From Paracoccus sp. (in: a-proteobacteria) (GTDB lineage Bacteria > Pseudomonadota > Alphaproteobacteria > Rhodobacterales > Rhodobacteraceae), in contig NZ_JAUNPC010000015.1 in assembly GCF_030536915.1 (NCBI RefSeq), forward strand, positions 1 through 44,074: 44,074 bases of DNA, written 5' to 3'. Below are positions 19,173 to 43,603 of the stretch, in pieces. Made by a program: the position numbers and the translations under genes. The notes under the pieces are model-generated. The model ran no database searches. It saw nothing but the letters and a program-made list of their open reading frames with translations, and was not told the DNA's origin. The stretch's first letter is position 1. The number at the start of each line of letters is the position of its first letter.

Positions 19173-20695
<1,523 letters not shown>

Positions 20696-20699
<4 letters not shown>

Positions 20700-21721
20700 C
20701 GCAAGAAGCCACTGGGGATGATGCGCAGCATTTCACCCTGTTCACAGCCGTGAAGAACGAGGCTCCATTCCTTCTGGAATGGATCGCCTATCACAAGGTG
20801 ATCGGCTTCGACAGGATTGCAATCGTCTCCAACCCGTCCAGTGACATGACGAATGAACTGCTGGATGCCTTGGCAGGGGCAGGCGAGATCATTCACACTG
20901 TTACGACTGTGCCCGAGGGCGTCGCTCCGCAGGCGGTCGCCGCGAAAATAGCCAATGAGGGCGGGTTCATCCGCAAGGGTGACTGGGCGATCTGGCTGGA
21001 TGCGGACGAATTCCTGAACATCCATGTCGGTGATGGTTTCGTCACCGACATGGTTCGTTTTCTCGGTCCGCGGCAGGCGATCATCATCCCGTGGCGGATA
21101 TTCGGAGACAGCGGAAACCAGGCATTCTCTGGCCGGTTCATCTCGAACAGCTTCTCGAGGGCAGCAGCGCTCGAATCCGAGGTCAATCTGAAGGTGAAGA
21201 CATTCTTCAGGATGAGCGACGCGGTGCTGGGCTTGTCGGGGCATTCCGTGCATCGGCCGCTTCTTTCCGGAACCCTGCCGATTGGAAGCTTCGCCGGCTG
21301 CGATGGGCAGGAACTGCGATCCAGCAACCGGGTTCACCGGAAGTGGGTCGAGGGACTGGATCGCTCGCGCGCGTCGCGGATTCCGCCGGAGGAAATCAGC
21401 TATGATGTCGCGCAAATCAATCACTACTGTGTCAGAACCCCCGAGCATTTCGCGCTGAAGCGAATTCGGGGACGCGGCTGGGCGGCAGCGCAGGCAGGCG
21501 CCTCGAACAAGCGCCACAATGCGGAATTCTACGTTCAGATGAACCGGAATGATTGCCCGGATCAAAGCATCCTCAGGCATGAGGATGCGGTGACCGCAGA
21601 AATCCAACGGCTGATGTCCATCCAGGGCCTAGGCGAATTGCAGCAAGAAGCCCTGCGGCGCGTTGCAGCGCAACTGAATGAAGCAACAGCAACTCACAAT
21701 GTGCCGGATGCAGTGAGCTGA
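20696..21721 (+). CDS. Glycosyltransferase-family-2-like protein (Glyco_tranf_2_4 type) inside the suf operon
   Basis: A 341-residue protein. [20 protein letters not shown] at 20-39, followed by [13 protein letters not shown], is the N-terminal signature of the GT2-like family that starts with NE-x-LLEW-xxYH, and DAD at 102-104 in WLDADEFL is the nucleotide-sugar/metal motif. The acceptor and sugar are unknown; there is no signal peptide or obvious membrane helix. The start is GTG at 20696, overlapping the sufB stop by four bases, with AAGGG upstream. Its base composition is lower than that of sufB (20821-20880 has 34 G+C in 60; 19621-19680 has 42 in 60), consistent with a later insertion. 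A 50-base gap separates it from sufC. It has no obvious Fe-S role. Confidence 0.82.
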
Positions 21722-37261: not shown

Positions 37262-38362
37262 TCAGCCGATCACCCCTCGCGTGCCGCCCGTCTGGGCGCG
37301 GTCCAGCAGCAGGTGGTCGAGGATCACGCAGGCCGCCATCGCCTCGGCCACCGGCACCGCGCGGATGCCGACGCAGGGATCGTGGCGGCCCTTGGTGACA
37401 AGCTCGATCTCCTCGCCTGCGCGGTTGATCGTCCGGCGCGAGGTCAGGATCGAGCTGGTGGGCTTCACCGCAAAGCGCAGCACGATGTCCTGCCCCGTGG
37501 AAATGCCCCCGAGGATGCCGCCCGCGTGGTTCGACAGGAACTCGGGTCCGTCCGGTCCCATGCGGATCTCGTCTGCGTTTTCGGTCCCGCGCAGGCGTGC
37601 CGCGGCCATGCCCTCGCCGATTTCCACGGCCTTGACGGCGTTGATCGACATCATCGCCGCTGCGAGATCGGTGTCGAGCTTTGCGTAGACCGGCGCGCCG
37701 AGGCCCGGCGGGCACCCCTGGATCAGCACTTCGACAACCGCGCCGACGCTGTCCTGATCCTTGCGGATGCGGGACAGGTAGTCGGTCCATTCGGGGACTG
37801 CCGCAGGGTCGGGAAGGAAGAAGTCATTGCGGTCTATTTCGCTCAGGTCAAAGCGCGTGTGATCGATGGTCAGTTCGCCCATCTGCACCATATAGCCTGT
37901 AATGGTCAGGTGTTGCGCCAATTCGCGCAGGACCGCGCGGGCGACGCCACCTGCCGCGACGCGGGCGGCGGTTTCGCGGGCGCTGGACCGGCCGCCGCCG
38001 CGATAGTCGCGGTGGCCGTATTTCAGGTGATAGGTGATGTCGGCATGGCCGGGGCGGAAGGCCTGGGCGATCTCGCCATAATCGCGGCTTCGCTGGTCGG
38101 TGTTCTCGATCATCAGCTGGATCGGGGTGCCGGTCGTGCGGCCCTCGAAGACGCCCGAGAGAATCCGAACGGAATCAGGCTCTTGCCGCTGCGTGGTCAT
38201 CTTCGACTGGCCGGGGCGGCGGCGGTCGAGGAAGGGCTGAATCGCGGCCTCGTCCAAGGGGATGCCGGGGGGGCAGCCGTCCACGGTGGCGCCGAGCGCG
38301 GGGCCGTGGCTTTCGCCCCAGGTGGTGACGGTGAAGATGCGGCCGAAGCTGTTGACGCTCAT
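37262..38362 (-). CDS. aroC: Chorismate synthase
   Basis: A 366-residue FMN-dependent enzyme that makes chorismate, the last step of the shikimate pathway. Signatures are [21 protein letters not shown] near the N terminus, [35 protein letters not shown] and [17 protein letters not shown], and [17 protein letters not shown] near the C terminus. The length equals the family norm (about 360). The start at 38362 (MSVNSFGR) has AAAGGGG upstream at moderate spacing. The divergent 227-base region towards the BrnA-like gene carries the 11-bp repeat array, so regulators bound there could touch both promoters. Confidence 0.98.
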
Positions 38363-38455
38363 GCGGAAAACCCCTTTGCGACGGCATAGGCGAGGGGGGC
38401 GCGCGGTGCAACGGGGCGCGCTTTCGGAACTCCGGCCCCTGCCTGTTGGGTCGGG

Positions 38456-38470
38456 ATTTCCCCGGGAAAT
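38456..38470. promoter_or_regulatory. 15-bp inverted repeat ATTTCCC-C-GGGAAAT
   Basis: ATTTCCC (38456-38462), a central C, and GGGAAAT (38464-38470) are perfect reverse complements. The element lies between the divergent aroC and BrnA-like genes and ends 15 bases before the ATGCAC array. It looks like a protein-binding dyad (no loop long enough for an RNA hairpin). The binding protein is unknown. Confidence 0.45.
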
Positions 38471-38484
38471 GCGCTGCATATCCG

Positions 38485-38528
38485 ATGCACGGGGGATGCA
38501 CACACCATGCACAAGTGATGCGAACGCC
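38485..38528 (+). repeat. Array of four direct repeats with an 11-bp period (ATGCAC core)
   Basis: ATGCAC begins at 38485, 38496 and 38507, and ATGCGA at 38518, each exactly 11 bases after the last. The five linker bases differ (GGGGG, ACACC, AAGTG, ACGCC), so the 6-base core, not the whole unit, is conserved. A weak fifth unit, CTGCAT, sits one period earlier (38474). Spacing of about one helical turn places the cores on one face of the DNA, as in operators for cooperative regulators. The array lies 62 bases before the BrnA-like gene. Confidence 0.65.
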
Positions 38529-38589
38529 GCGTTGAGGGGGCGTTAACCCCGTTCCGCCAGACTGCGGGCACAGGGGCAGGGGGGCGCGC

Positions 38590-39084
38590 ATGGGCGAGAC
38601 GAAGGCCGAGACGGCGAGGCGGATCAACTATCACTATATGGCCGACGCGATGCGGCGGCTGGAGTGGGACCTGCACCAGAAGGTCCTGACTGAGGGGCGC
38701 ATCCCCGAGGCCTGGCACGAGATCGCGCGCGAGCGCGGCGAGGCCAAGCGCATCCGGGTGACGATCGCGCTGGAGGAGGACGTGGTCCGCTTCTTCCGCG
38801 GCATGGGCGAGGGCTATGGCCCCCGCATGAACGCGGTCCTGCGCGCCTTCATGCACGCGCGGCTGGCGGGCCTTCTGCGCGGGGGCGAGACGATGGACTA
38901 CCTGTCCCGCCGCGAGGGCGAGGGGCTGGACGGCCGCAAGCCGGGCTGGGGCGAGGCGCAGGCGGCCTACGAGGACCTCGGCCCCGACGCCGCCCGGCTG
39001 ATGAGCGACGAGCCGGGGGTGCCTCTGGGTGAGGAGAAGCGGGCGGGGCGGGCGGATACGATGGCGTGGTTGAGGGGGAGGTAG
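38590..39084 (+). CDS. BrnA-like (ribbon-helix-helix) protein without a BrnT partner
   Basis: A 164-residue protein. Residues about 53-92 (RIRVTIALEEDVVRFFRGMG ... RMNAVLRAFMHARLAG) match the C-terminal BrnA antitoxin/DUF4415 pattern: a short beta strand followed by two helices, a ribbon-helix-helix DNA-binding fold. The N-terminal 50 residues (AETARRINYHYMADAMRRLE) and C-terminal 70 residues are extra; classical BrnA is about 80-100 residues. No BrnT toxin is next to it, and relatives with this long layout occur in Rhodobacterales as I recall. AGGGGGG precedes ATG 38590. RHH proteins often repress their own promoter, and the 11-bp array lies directly upstream. Function otherwise unknown. Confidence 0.7.
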   Translation: MGETKAETARRINYHYMADAMRRLEWDLHQKVLTEGRIPEAWHEIARERGEAKRIRVTIALEEDVVRFFRGMGEGYGPRMNAVLRAFMHARLAGLLRGGETMDYLSRREGEGLDGRKPGWGEAQAAYEDLGPDAARLMSDEPGVPLGEEKRAGRADTMAWLRGR

Positions 39085-39112
39085 GGTGAGGGTGCCACGC
39101 CGTTGCGGATTG

Positions 39113-39133
39113 GTGAGGTGAAACCCACCCCAC
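39113..39133 (+). terminator. Hairpin after the BrnA-like gene
   Basis: GTGAGGTG (39113-39120) pairs with CACCCCAC (39126-39133), seven of eight positions, across AAACC. It lies 28 bases past the stop and marks the approximate left edge of the low-GC cassette. The GTGAAACCCACC-like string resembles dispersed intergenic sequences in this group, from memory only. Confidence 0.4.
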
Positions 39134-39375
39134 ACTTGCTATGCTTGACGTCACCAACGCATTTGTGGAGATTTACTATCAAATAGCTGCTATAAGAATG
39201 CGTATGTGAGTGGCCTAGAAGGGAGCTAGTTAGTAATCGAGCCAATGACTTGAAACAATGCTCGCTTGGGCCTCAAGACTTGTTTCTTTGTGGCCCGTCG
39301 AATGTGGAGATATGTTGTCCTAGGTCATCTGTGCTGGTTTGCTGTCTGGCTGCATATGCGGGTGGGCAGGTCGTC

Positions 39376-39888
39376 ATGAATACTGTTCTGAACGAGCACT
39401 CGGTTCTGTACATTGTACTATCTGAGTGGGTTCCGCCACTGATTACAATTTTGATTGGTGGGGTTCTTGCATCTGTTTTGTTCCCTCGCTGGCAGGACCA
39501 GCATGCGCGCTACCATGCACGGGAAGATAGAAAGTTAGCTTTAGCCGAAGAATTTTCTCGAAACATAACTCGCTACTTGGTTTGTTGGAGGCGCTTAAGG
39601 ACTATTGCAGAACTTGAGCTGTCGCGCTCTGATGGGCTCACAGAGGCTGAATTTGAGCGCAAGAAGAAATTTGTGGAAGCGCGCGATACAGCTAGAGATG
39701 CCCTGATGGACACTCTTTGTAGTCTTGGAGTTTATTTTTCGAATAATGTTAGGGCATCGATAGACGATTTTATAAGATGGGACGAGGCGTGTTGCTCTAG
39801 TCGGATAAACGACTTGCCGCCTCGCGAGGATTACACAAAGAAACGTCAAGAACTAATAGCGGTTGTGCACAGAGAGGTTGCGAGATGA
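39376..39888 (+). CDS. Membrane-anchored helical protein of unknown function (low-GC cassette, gene 1)
   Basis: A 170-residue protein that I do not recognise. Residues about 11-35 (YIVLSEWVPPLITILIGGVL) form one hydrophobic helix; the rest is charged and mostly helical (RKLALAEEFSRNITRYLVCW; LTEAEFERKKKFVEARDTAR), ending VVHREVAR, so an inner-membrane anchor with a soluble helical domain is predicted. ATG 39376 is chosen because the helix starts soon after it and AGG lies upstream; an in-frame TTG 126 bases upstream would add a Cys-rich tail without support. The codon choice (TTA, ATA, AGA) and composition (26 G+C in 39541-39600) differ sharply from the neighbours, indicating transfer. It overlaps the next gene by four bases (ATGA). 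Confidence 0.65.
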   Translation: MNTVLNEHSVLYIVLSEWVPPLITILIGGVLASVLFPRWQDQHARYHAREDRKLALAEEFSRNITRYLVCWRRLRTIAELELSRSDGLTEAEFERKKKFVEARDTARDALMDTLCSLGVYFSNNVRASIDDFIRWDEACCSSRINDLPPREDYTKKRQELIAVVHREVAR

Positions 39889-40241
39889 TGCGCTTCCTCG
39901 TTGTTTTTGTGGGCTGTGTAATCGTTATATGCCATCCGGGTTCAAGTTCAGGTCAAGGATTTCTGCCTGGTCTGCTTCCCGATTTAGACTGTCCGGGTCC
40001 TGGATGCCCTGCAGGCAGCATAGGCCCTGCTCTAAGATTCCCAGAATCGGCTATAGGCCCGTCCTCTAAGCCACTAATTGGTCTAGATTGTCCGGACCCT
40101 GGGTGCCCTGCAGGCAGCATTAGCCCTGATCTAAGACTTCCAGAATCAGCTATAAACCCGGGCTCTAAACCATTAATTGATCTTGACTGTCCAGGCCCCG
40201 GCTGCCCGGGGCGCACAATATCTCCAAGTCTCAAGTTCTAA
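39885..40241 (+). CDS. Small secreted protein with 33-residue Cys/Pro/Gly repeats (low-GC cassette, gene 2)
   Basis: A 118-residue protein of unknown family. Residues 1-24 look like a signal peptide (MRFLVVFVGCVIVICHPGSS, then SGQG). The mature part is 2.6 tandem repeats of 33 residues beginning LDCPGPGCPAGSI; each carries a CPxPGCP pair, so the Cys residues fall at 36/41, 69/74 and 102/107, exactly 33 apart. Between them lies a stretch ending KPLI. The regular Cys pairs suggest disulfides or metal binding in the periplasm or outside; this is inference. Translation is coupled to gene 1 (ATGA), so the two are probably one functional unit. The Met at 39888 is an equally good start. It converges on carB, 23 bases away. 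Confidence 0.65.
   Translation: MMRFLVVFVGCVIVICHPGSSSGQGFLPGLLPDLDCPGPGCPAGSIGPALRFPESAIGPSSKPLIGLDCPDPGCPAGSISPDLRLPESAINPGSKPLIDLDCPGPGCPGRTISPSLKF
39984..40238 (+). repeat. Tandem 99-bp coding repeat, 2.6 copies
   Basis: Unit 1 spans 39984-40082, unit 2 spans 40083-40181, and a partial unit 3 spans 40182-40238. Units 1 and 2 agree at 81 of 99 bases by my count. Of the codons that differ, seven are silent and seven change the residue. The third unit keeps the Cys pair and ends in a divergent tail. This encodes the repeats of gene 2. Confidence 0.85.
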
Positions 40242-40264
40242 CTGTCCAAAACCTGCAGCAAGCA

Positions 40265-43603
<3,339 letters not shown>

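Follow-up and report, generated by a model that had tools for sequence, protein, structure and literature searches.

P1/P2, a rare and recurring gene pair with a constant octapeptide in P2, at a variable BrnA-like/carB site in Paracoccus sp.

The closest described counterparts of P1/P2, a pair of overlapping genes in a 44,074-nucleotide stretch of Paracoccus sp. (contig NZ_JAUNPC010000015.1, the whole of which we call ‘the window’), are defence hotspots, phage spanins and the hcp islands of type VI secretion systems (T6SS). In the core and replacement defence hotspots of Pseudomonas aeruginosa (cDHS; available part of PMC10250203) and the islands of Escherichia coli (available part of PMC10121019), core genes flank genome-specific cargo that includes anti-phage genes, as they do at the site of our pair; the ‘replacement islands’ of the former share with it short cassettes lacking mutual homology, and there is also a resemblance to the mobile hotspots of the latter. 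The Rz/Rz1 spanins (excerpted text of PMC6139136) are alike in their overlapping genes and in coupling an anchored helical protein to a small exported partner; in two-component pairs the i-spanin lies N-in, C-out, the o-spanin is an outer-membrane lipoprotein, and unusual lipoboxes are reported. Cargo-bearing hcp islands (PMC13098142, in the part available) are comparable in that four of the ten copies of our module adjoin hcp. Judged by sequence comparison, P1 and P2 form a rare, recurring and co-conserved module that matches no family in the libraries searched; our preferred reading, to which we give a probability of about 40%, is that the two genes make up an envelope module that moves horizontally and most likely serves anti-phage immunity, with P2 as display or sensor and P1 as inner-membrane actor.

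The P1/P2 pair and its octapeptide

Searching 394 genomes of the family (393 genera) with P1 alone, we recover besides its own genome just two others, cited like all genomes and loci below by our working handles: G749 (35% identity, E 2.1e-23) and G655 (28%, E 1.9e-13). In both, the next open reading frame (ORF) carries the octapeptide DCPGPGCP and looks exported (by eye), having little in common with P2 of the window beyond that string. The back-translated octapeptide, when searched for by itself, occurs in 4 of the 394 genomes, these being the window's own, G749, G655 and G759, in the last of which the match sits in a 22-aa frame; for both P1 genomes to fall by chance among the three of 393 that carry the octapeptide besides the window's own, the probability is 3.9e-5, and the two-of-two pairing, coming from a P1-only search, is free of peptide-based selection. 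Extending the octapeptide search to wider genome contigs gives 102 stretches, eight of them with a P1 homologue by profile and, each time, an octapeptide ORF directly downstream: two from Leisingera, three from uncultured Rhodobacteraceae, and one each from Phyllobacterium brassicacearum, a Rhodocyclales metagenome-assembled genome (MAG; here the locus ends within P1) and G655. Matches in the other 94 were discarded by eye as short, antisense-like or Pro/Gly-rich frames, and two further matches in viral contigs have no P1 alongside. At one octapeptide match, L203, there is a lipobox-like string.

In all, the module is known from 10 genomes, belonging to Rhodobacteraceae, Phyllobacterium and the Rhodocyclales MAG, and so recurs as a pair in distantly related bacteria; the genomes do not amount to ten independent cases, because G749 and L137 are near-identical. 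The coupling of a membrane protein to an exported partner, suspected in an earlier note made from the sequence of the window, recurs in all ten. P1 and P2 of the window overlap by a shared ATGA (4 nt), an overlap of the same length in 5/10 genomes and longer in most others. P1 looks rare elsewhere: it was not found in 60 other genomes searched, 36 of them of the same genus; searched with a profile, 295 genomes of the family returned its own genome and G655 only (G749, whose sister is in the profile, being evidently absent from that sample), and 385 genomes of the class nothing credible beyond its own. Dropped as relatives were G109 (E 6.1e-4), where the match lies inside a phage-portal-like ORF (by eye), and L209–L213, scoring 10–20 bits. 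One of these, L211, holds a 241-aa frame opening at 1399 in which a membrane helix precedes WQ...ERR..IAEE; it scores 17 bits against the P1 profile, adjoins MoxR/VWA-like genes (by eye) and perhaps belongs to a wider P1 superfamily. Weak matches to P2 are present in its own genome.

P1 (39376..39888, + strand; 170 aa) is a predicted single-pass inner-membrane protein with a helical bundle, a description that draws on the ORF, its homologues in 9 other genomes and an AlphaFold2 model. The most hydrophobic 19 residues in a hydropathy scan, residues 18–36 (39427..39483, +), mark the membrane helix; the model is all-helical with a mean predicted local distance difference test score (pLDDT) of 84.8, so that the one-helix anchor with a helical domain proposed in the earlier note holds up. 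There are no Lys/Arg residues in the 15 positions ahead of the helix and five in the 25 behind it (where the net charge is 0); positive-inside counts predict an N-out, C-in arrangement in 9/9 family members, and because of these counts the bundle is predicted to be cytoplasmic. Among the top chains returned by Foldseek, to which the fold comparison was limited, P1 resembles generic helical bundles only, leaving room for families outside that list. The four-helix-bundle sensors Tsr, Tar and NarQ carry periplasmic bundles placed between two membrane helices; P1, in contrast, has one hydrophobic helix and a bundle predicted to be cytoplasmic, and its similarity to them is within the helical-bundle background. 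Non-synonymous and synonymous divergence (dN 0.136, dS 0.901; R960 vs R970) indicates purifying selection on P1. Row ends in the P1 alignment (A4) were set by hand: the rows of L175 and L113 start inside longer frames, that of L175, which runs on for about 50 residues past the stop position of L113, was cut there, and that of L158 is truncated by the edge of its locus. The L175 frame itself (633–1397, Leisingera daeponensis) lacks the stop present in its relative L113 and reads across the P2 start.

P2 (39885..40241, +; 118 aa), an ORF whose counterparts in 9 other genomes bear the same octapeptide, is predicted to be an exported Cys/Pro/Gly repeat protein. Its hydrophobic N-terminus, taken by eye as a signal peptide of about residues 1–24 (39885..39956, +; cleavage site guessed), has no lipobox consensus. 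Downstream lies a 99-bp tandem repeat, found by repeat scan, of 2.3 copies encoding 33-aa units (39981..40207, +); the Cys/Pro/Gly repeats and signal-like start described earlier are both recovered, the latter again by eye. The repeats carry three DCP[GD]PGCP motifs: DCPGPGCP at 39987..40010 and 40185..40208 (both +, from pattern matching and the repeats) and, between them, DCPDPGCP at 40086..40109 (+, from the translation). Repeat units 1 and 2 differ by dN 0.135 and dS 0.460, and P2 as a whole by dN 0.465 and dS 1.371 (R960 vs R970).

Comparison of the partners indicates that P2 varies strongly in length, anchoring and sequence around DCPGPGCP. Besides the octapeptide, the P2 alignment has only two invariant columns, a Met and an upstream Cys; the invariance of the octapeptide is partly built in, because the peptide itself was used to retrieve the 8 rows other than that of the window. 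A lipobox is found in 3/9 partners (alignment A5: two Leisingera and G655) and is missing from P2 of the window; the remaining partners seem, by eye, to be secreted. The forms in L137, L146 and L159, whose start sites were chosen by hand, contain a stretch resembling a peptidoglycan-binding repeat (by eye), with no Pfam match in the two of them tested and no PDB sequence match in one. The octapeptide string was not found in the literature collection searched, a negative that covers that collection alone.

Neither protein could be placed in a known family, as the earlier note had supposed: P1 and P2 have no match above noise in Pfam, NCBIfam, PHROGs or PADLOC, no family of PADLOC-DB 2.0.0 is hit by either at E up to 1, and a Pfam scan of the whole P1 alignment, with its 9 members, gave only two single-member noise matches. 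No direct precedent for the module appears among the literature matches listed.

The variable BrnA-like/carB interval

The pair lies in a low-G+C insert of 1,180 bp (39085..40264, no strand assigned), delimited by identity breakpoints as well as by composition: nucleotide identity with G033 and G020 ends at the stop codon of a BrnA-family gene (39084) and restarts at 40264/40265. That gene (38590..39084, +; PF14384, E 5.6e-11) forms the left border of the interval, with chorismate synthase (aroC; Pfam E 5.5e-136) on the same side, and the right border is a 1112-aa ORF (40265..43603, –) that we take, from its sequence, to be carB; two genes joined by ATGA between aroC/BrnA-like and carB are therefore confirmed as first described. 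No BrnT toxin gene was recognised (by eye) beside the BrnA-family antitoxin gene.

The insert has a G+C content of 0.497 against 0.68 in its surroundings, the minimum for other stretches of that length sampled across the window being 0.581, and positions 39541–39600 contain exactly 26 G+C in 60, the figure from which the earlier note had argued. Its second compositional argument, the use of TTA, ATA and AGA codons, is equally sound: these make up 13/171 codons in P1 and 9/119 in P2, as against 1/417 in aroC, 0/165 in the BrnA-like gene and 0/1113 in carB, or 76 per thousand in the pair versus 0–2.4 in the three neighbouring genes counted. Such composition, together with the variability of the site and the absence of P1 from 36 other genomes of the genus in which it was searched for, bears out the proposal of acquisition by transfer. 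Rfam gave no match within 38300–40400. Elsewhere in the window, at about 20690–21721, a lower-GC glycosyltransferase-like frame (named by eye) lies between sufB-like and sufC-like genes.

The variability emerges from a comparison of sister genomes. The C-terminal part of carB was searched for in 61 genomes of the genus, the window's own included, and found in 60; downstream stretches of 1–7.4 kb were taken from 56 of the 59 other genomes with a match (G814, G029 and G031 being left out). Half of these (28/56) are uninformative, because neither aroC nor a BrnA-like gene is found in them. In the rest, the gap from carB to the border is nil in three, where aroC directly adjoins carB, 330 bp in one, 1.1–3.3 kb in 23 and 6.2 kb of high-GC sequence in one. 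A BrnA-like gene lies near carB in 21/56 stretches, the intervals so bounded having a G+C of 0.48–0.57 (17) or 0.59–0.62 (4). P1 and P2 are absent from all 56. The earlier note had asked whether the cassette is variable between carB and aroC in sister genomes; it is, the interval being otherwise empty or filled with unrelated, mostly low-GC cargo.

We scanned this cargo as 32 ORFs of at least 100 aa from 20 intervals, 26 of them against Pfam and 30 against PADLOC, with 10 repeated singly. PADLOC matches occur in 6 of the 21 intervals with a BrnA-like gene, a raw count for this interval alone. They comprise Drt2 reverse transcriptase (four ORF members in 2 intervals, best E 3.2e-124), a dCTPase in L053 (E 2.7e-132), PD-T4-5/AbiD together with Pfam Abi_2 in L054, NsnA/PD-T4-2_A together with GmrSD_N in L057, and a dGTPase in L082 (PADLOC E 3.3e-63); one more interval, that of L050, holds a Pfam SLFN_AlbA_2 protein. 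The PADLOC table gives counts only; from the Pfam matches, the Drt2 members are probably L049 and pieces of L092. Both Drt2-like genes are broken, that of L049 (266–2668) running into a transposase-like frame and that of L092 (5535–6736) being split in three pieces. Further cargo, of non-defence or unknown kind, includes trypsin-like and CHAP proteins (L060), a pentapeptide protein (L104), DUF4365 (L093, below cut-off) and TIGR04255 (L081).

From these matches we conclude that the BrnA-like/carB interval is a small variable site, one that takes up anti-phage genes in several of the species compared, and the pair accordingly sits where sister genomes are empty or hold unrelated known defence genes. 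We liken the interval to the ‘replacement islands’ (PMC10250203, on the part available) because its cargo differs between species and includes both defence and non-defence genes. It departs from known defence hotspots in spanning only about 1–3 kb and one to three genes, and in the window no tRNA or flanking repeats were found and no integrase was recognised (by eye). The site is not named in the defence-hotspot literature among the matches listed, and a search on DRT2, dGTPase and dCTP deaminase hotspots in alphaproteobacteria found no precedent in the collection searched.

Other genomic homes and alternative explanations

In both Leisingera genomes the module stands at the 3' side of uvrB (identified in L113 by Pfam UvrB and in L175 by the same sequence). 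In G655 its neighbours are uvrB, a transposase-like piece (by eye) and, at a distance of about 1 kb, putAbiC (PF16872, E 1e-19). The G+C of P1 and of its locus is 0.47 and 0.68 in the window, 0.45 and 0.60–0.64 in Leisingera, 0.43 and 0.53 in G655, and 0.48 and 0.54 in Phyllobacterium (P2 0.55); by these values three lineages have a clearly low G+C, and Phyllobacterium is a marginal case. A different setting is found in G749, L137, L146 and L159, where trigger factor and a 5'-nucleotidase gene flank the module, whose composition is host-like (0.57–0.61 against 0.57–0.59).

An explanation unrelated to immunity, envelope maintenance or sensing, would have the cysteines of P2 bind something periplasmic and P1 relay or anchor; we hold this to be possible, if rather unlikely, and the host-like copies just described fit a settled envelope role of this kind better than they fit our preferred reading.

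The same four genomes bear on contact-dependent competition, in which P1 and P2 would protect against or assist a T6SS effector, P2 as periplasmic immunity or accessory protein and P1 as its membrane partner. Here a divergent hcp lies just upstream of P1 (PF05638, E 5.5e-33 in G749, the copies in L137, L146 and L159 being 57–99% identical to it) and a third secreted protein lies downstream; the T6SS sheath gene VipB is also present in G749 (E 7.6e-122). In L046 (8948–11118), L137, L146 and L159, hcp, P1, P2 and the third secreted protein, which has no Pfam match, make up a conserved group. Against this, hcp adjoins 4/10 modules only, all in one synteny group, and was not found near the window pair or the other five modules (in stretches of 8–20 kb, and 44 kb for the window); no effector domain was found, in contrast to the cargo-bearing islands (PMC13098142, as far as its available part goes). 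Of the three genomes searched for VipB, two gave no match, namely G655 (100% complete) and that of the window (86% complete), and no toxin-like gene was recognised by eye beside the window pair. We consider competition distinctly unlikely.

A captured two-component spanin pair, with P1 as i-spanin and P2 as small o-spanin, would account for the overlapping genes, the N-terminal membrane helix with its helical domain, the small Pro/Cys-rich exported partner and the lipobox in 3/9 partners. Predicted topology, lipobox and context all fail, however, and we reject membership: the predicted arrangement is opposite in 9/9; 6/9 partners, that of the window included, have no lipobox consensus (unusual ones being conceivable); there is no PHROG match, nor any in phages (P1 of the window and of Phyllobacterium) or viral contigs (close relatives); and the pair of the window is chromosomal, sitting between aroC/BrnA-like and carB, with neither a holin nor an endolysin gene recognised (by eye) beside it. 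A spanin origin is accordingly very improbable.

That the insert is decaying, non-functional or made of chance ORFs seems scarcely credible: a simple scan did find no promoter or terminator match, and P2 is of low complexity, but homologous pairs exist with purifying selection on P1, the octapeptide recurs, and the repeat units of P2 differ more at synonymous sites. A BrnTA reading is rejected, there being no BrnT or BrnA Pfam match for P1 or P2 and the BrnA-like gene being a separate neighbour.

A proposed role in envelope immunity

The earlier note suggested a surface, effector or immunity-type module; immunity or competition is our best guess for the pair because of the variable site, with its anti-phage genes in some relatives, and because of the neighbouring putAbiC (G655) and hcp (four genomes). 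In the immune mechanism that we favour, P2 would be exported and would display the octapeptide, with its two cysteines, either in the periplasm or at the outer membrane, serving as a bait, sensor or restraint. P1 would cross the inner membrane once, its N-terminus facing out and its helical bundle lying on the cytoplasmic side. Once P2 is engaged, by an arriving phage or by some other attack on the envelope, P1 would change state and then block infection or halt the cell; the trigger, the contact between P1 and P2 and the action of P1 are guesses.

Several observations weigh against this. The immune function is read from context and sequence, neither P1 nor P2 matches PADLOC, and the PADLOC matches were counted in this one interval. 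Part of the cargo there is not defensive, namely an MFS transporter (L089), a sulfatase (L096) and a transposase (L100); the best NCBIfam model for the L082 dGTPase is a general dGTPase, not the anti-phage one; the SLFN_AlbA_2 protein of L050 (Pfam) has no PADLOC match; and the interval ORFs of L055, L056, L071, L073, L084 and L102 have no family in the Pfam and PADLOC scans. Four of the ten modules are chromosomal, host-like in G+C and beside hcp, which sits more easily with competition or with a settled envelope role. In the Leisingera pair the dN of P2 exceeds its dS (0.062 and 0.041), and between L137 and G749 its dN is 0.012 with a dS of 0. Lastly, no vehicle is seen, because P1 of the window is unmatched in plasmids and phages, as it is in viral contigs (close relatives only) and genome contigs, and P2 is unmatched in plasmids and viral contigs; P1 of Phyllobacterium likewise has no match in plasmids or phages, and P1 of Leisingera none in plasmids.

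A narrower form of the immune reading, which we regard as doubtful, would be a new kind of envelope immunity in which a constant DCPGPGCP display peptide, carried on fast-changing exported scaffolds (secreted, lipid-anchored, longer secreted or tandem copies), is watched by a cognate single-pass inner-membrane protein; the octapeptide itself would then be the working part, because only it and the membrane protein are conserved.

The judgement of the earlier note that function could not be inferred from the sequence stands in part and was in part too pessimistic, comparison having yielded the constant octapeptide and the variable site; neither host-like homologues at the same locus in most relatives nor a known unrelated family came to light. 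What was an orphan pair can now be treated as a family, defined by a signature that can be searched for, and it draws attention to a variable BrnA-like/carB site where several species of the genus have taken up anti-phage genes. Should the pair prove to be immune machinery, a single short peptide would lie at the core of an envelope-level system, which would set it apart from the other cargo of the site, with its reverse transcriptase, deaminase, dGTPase and GmrSD-like genes.
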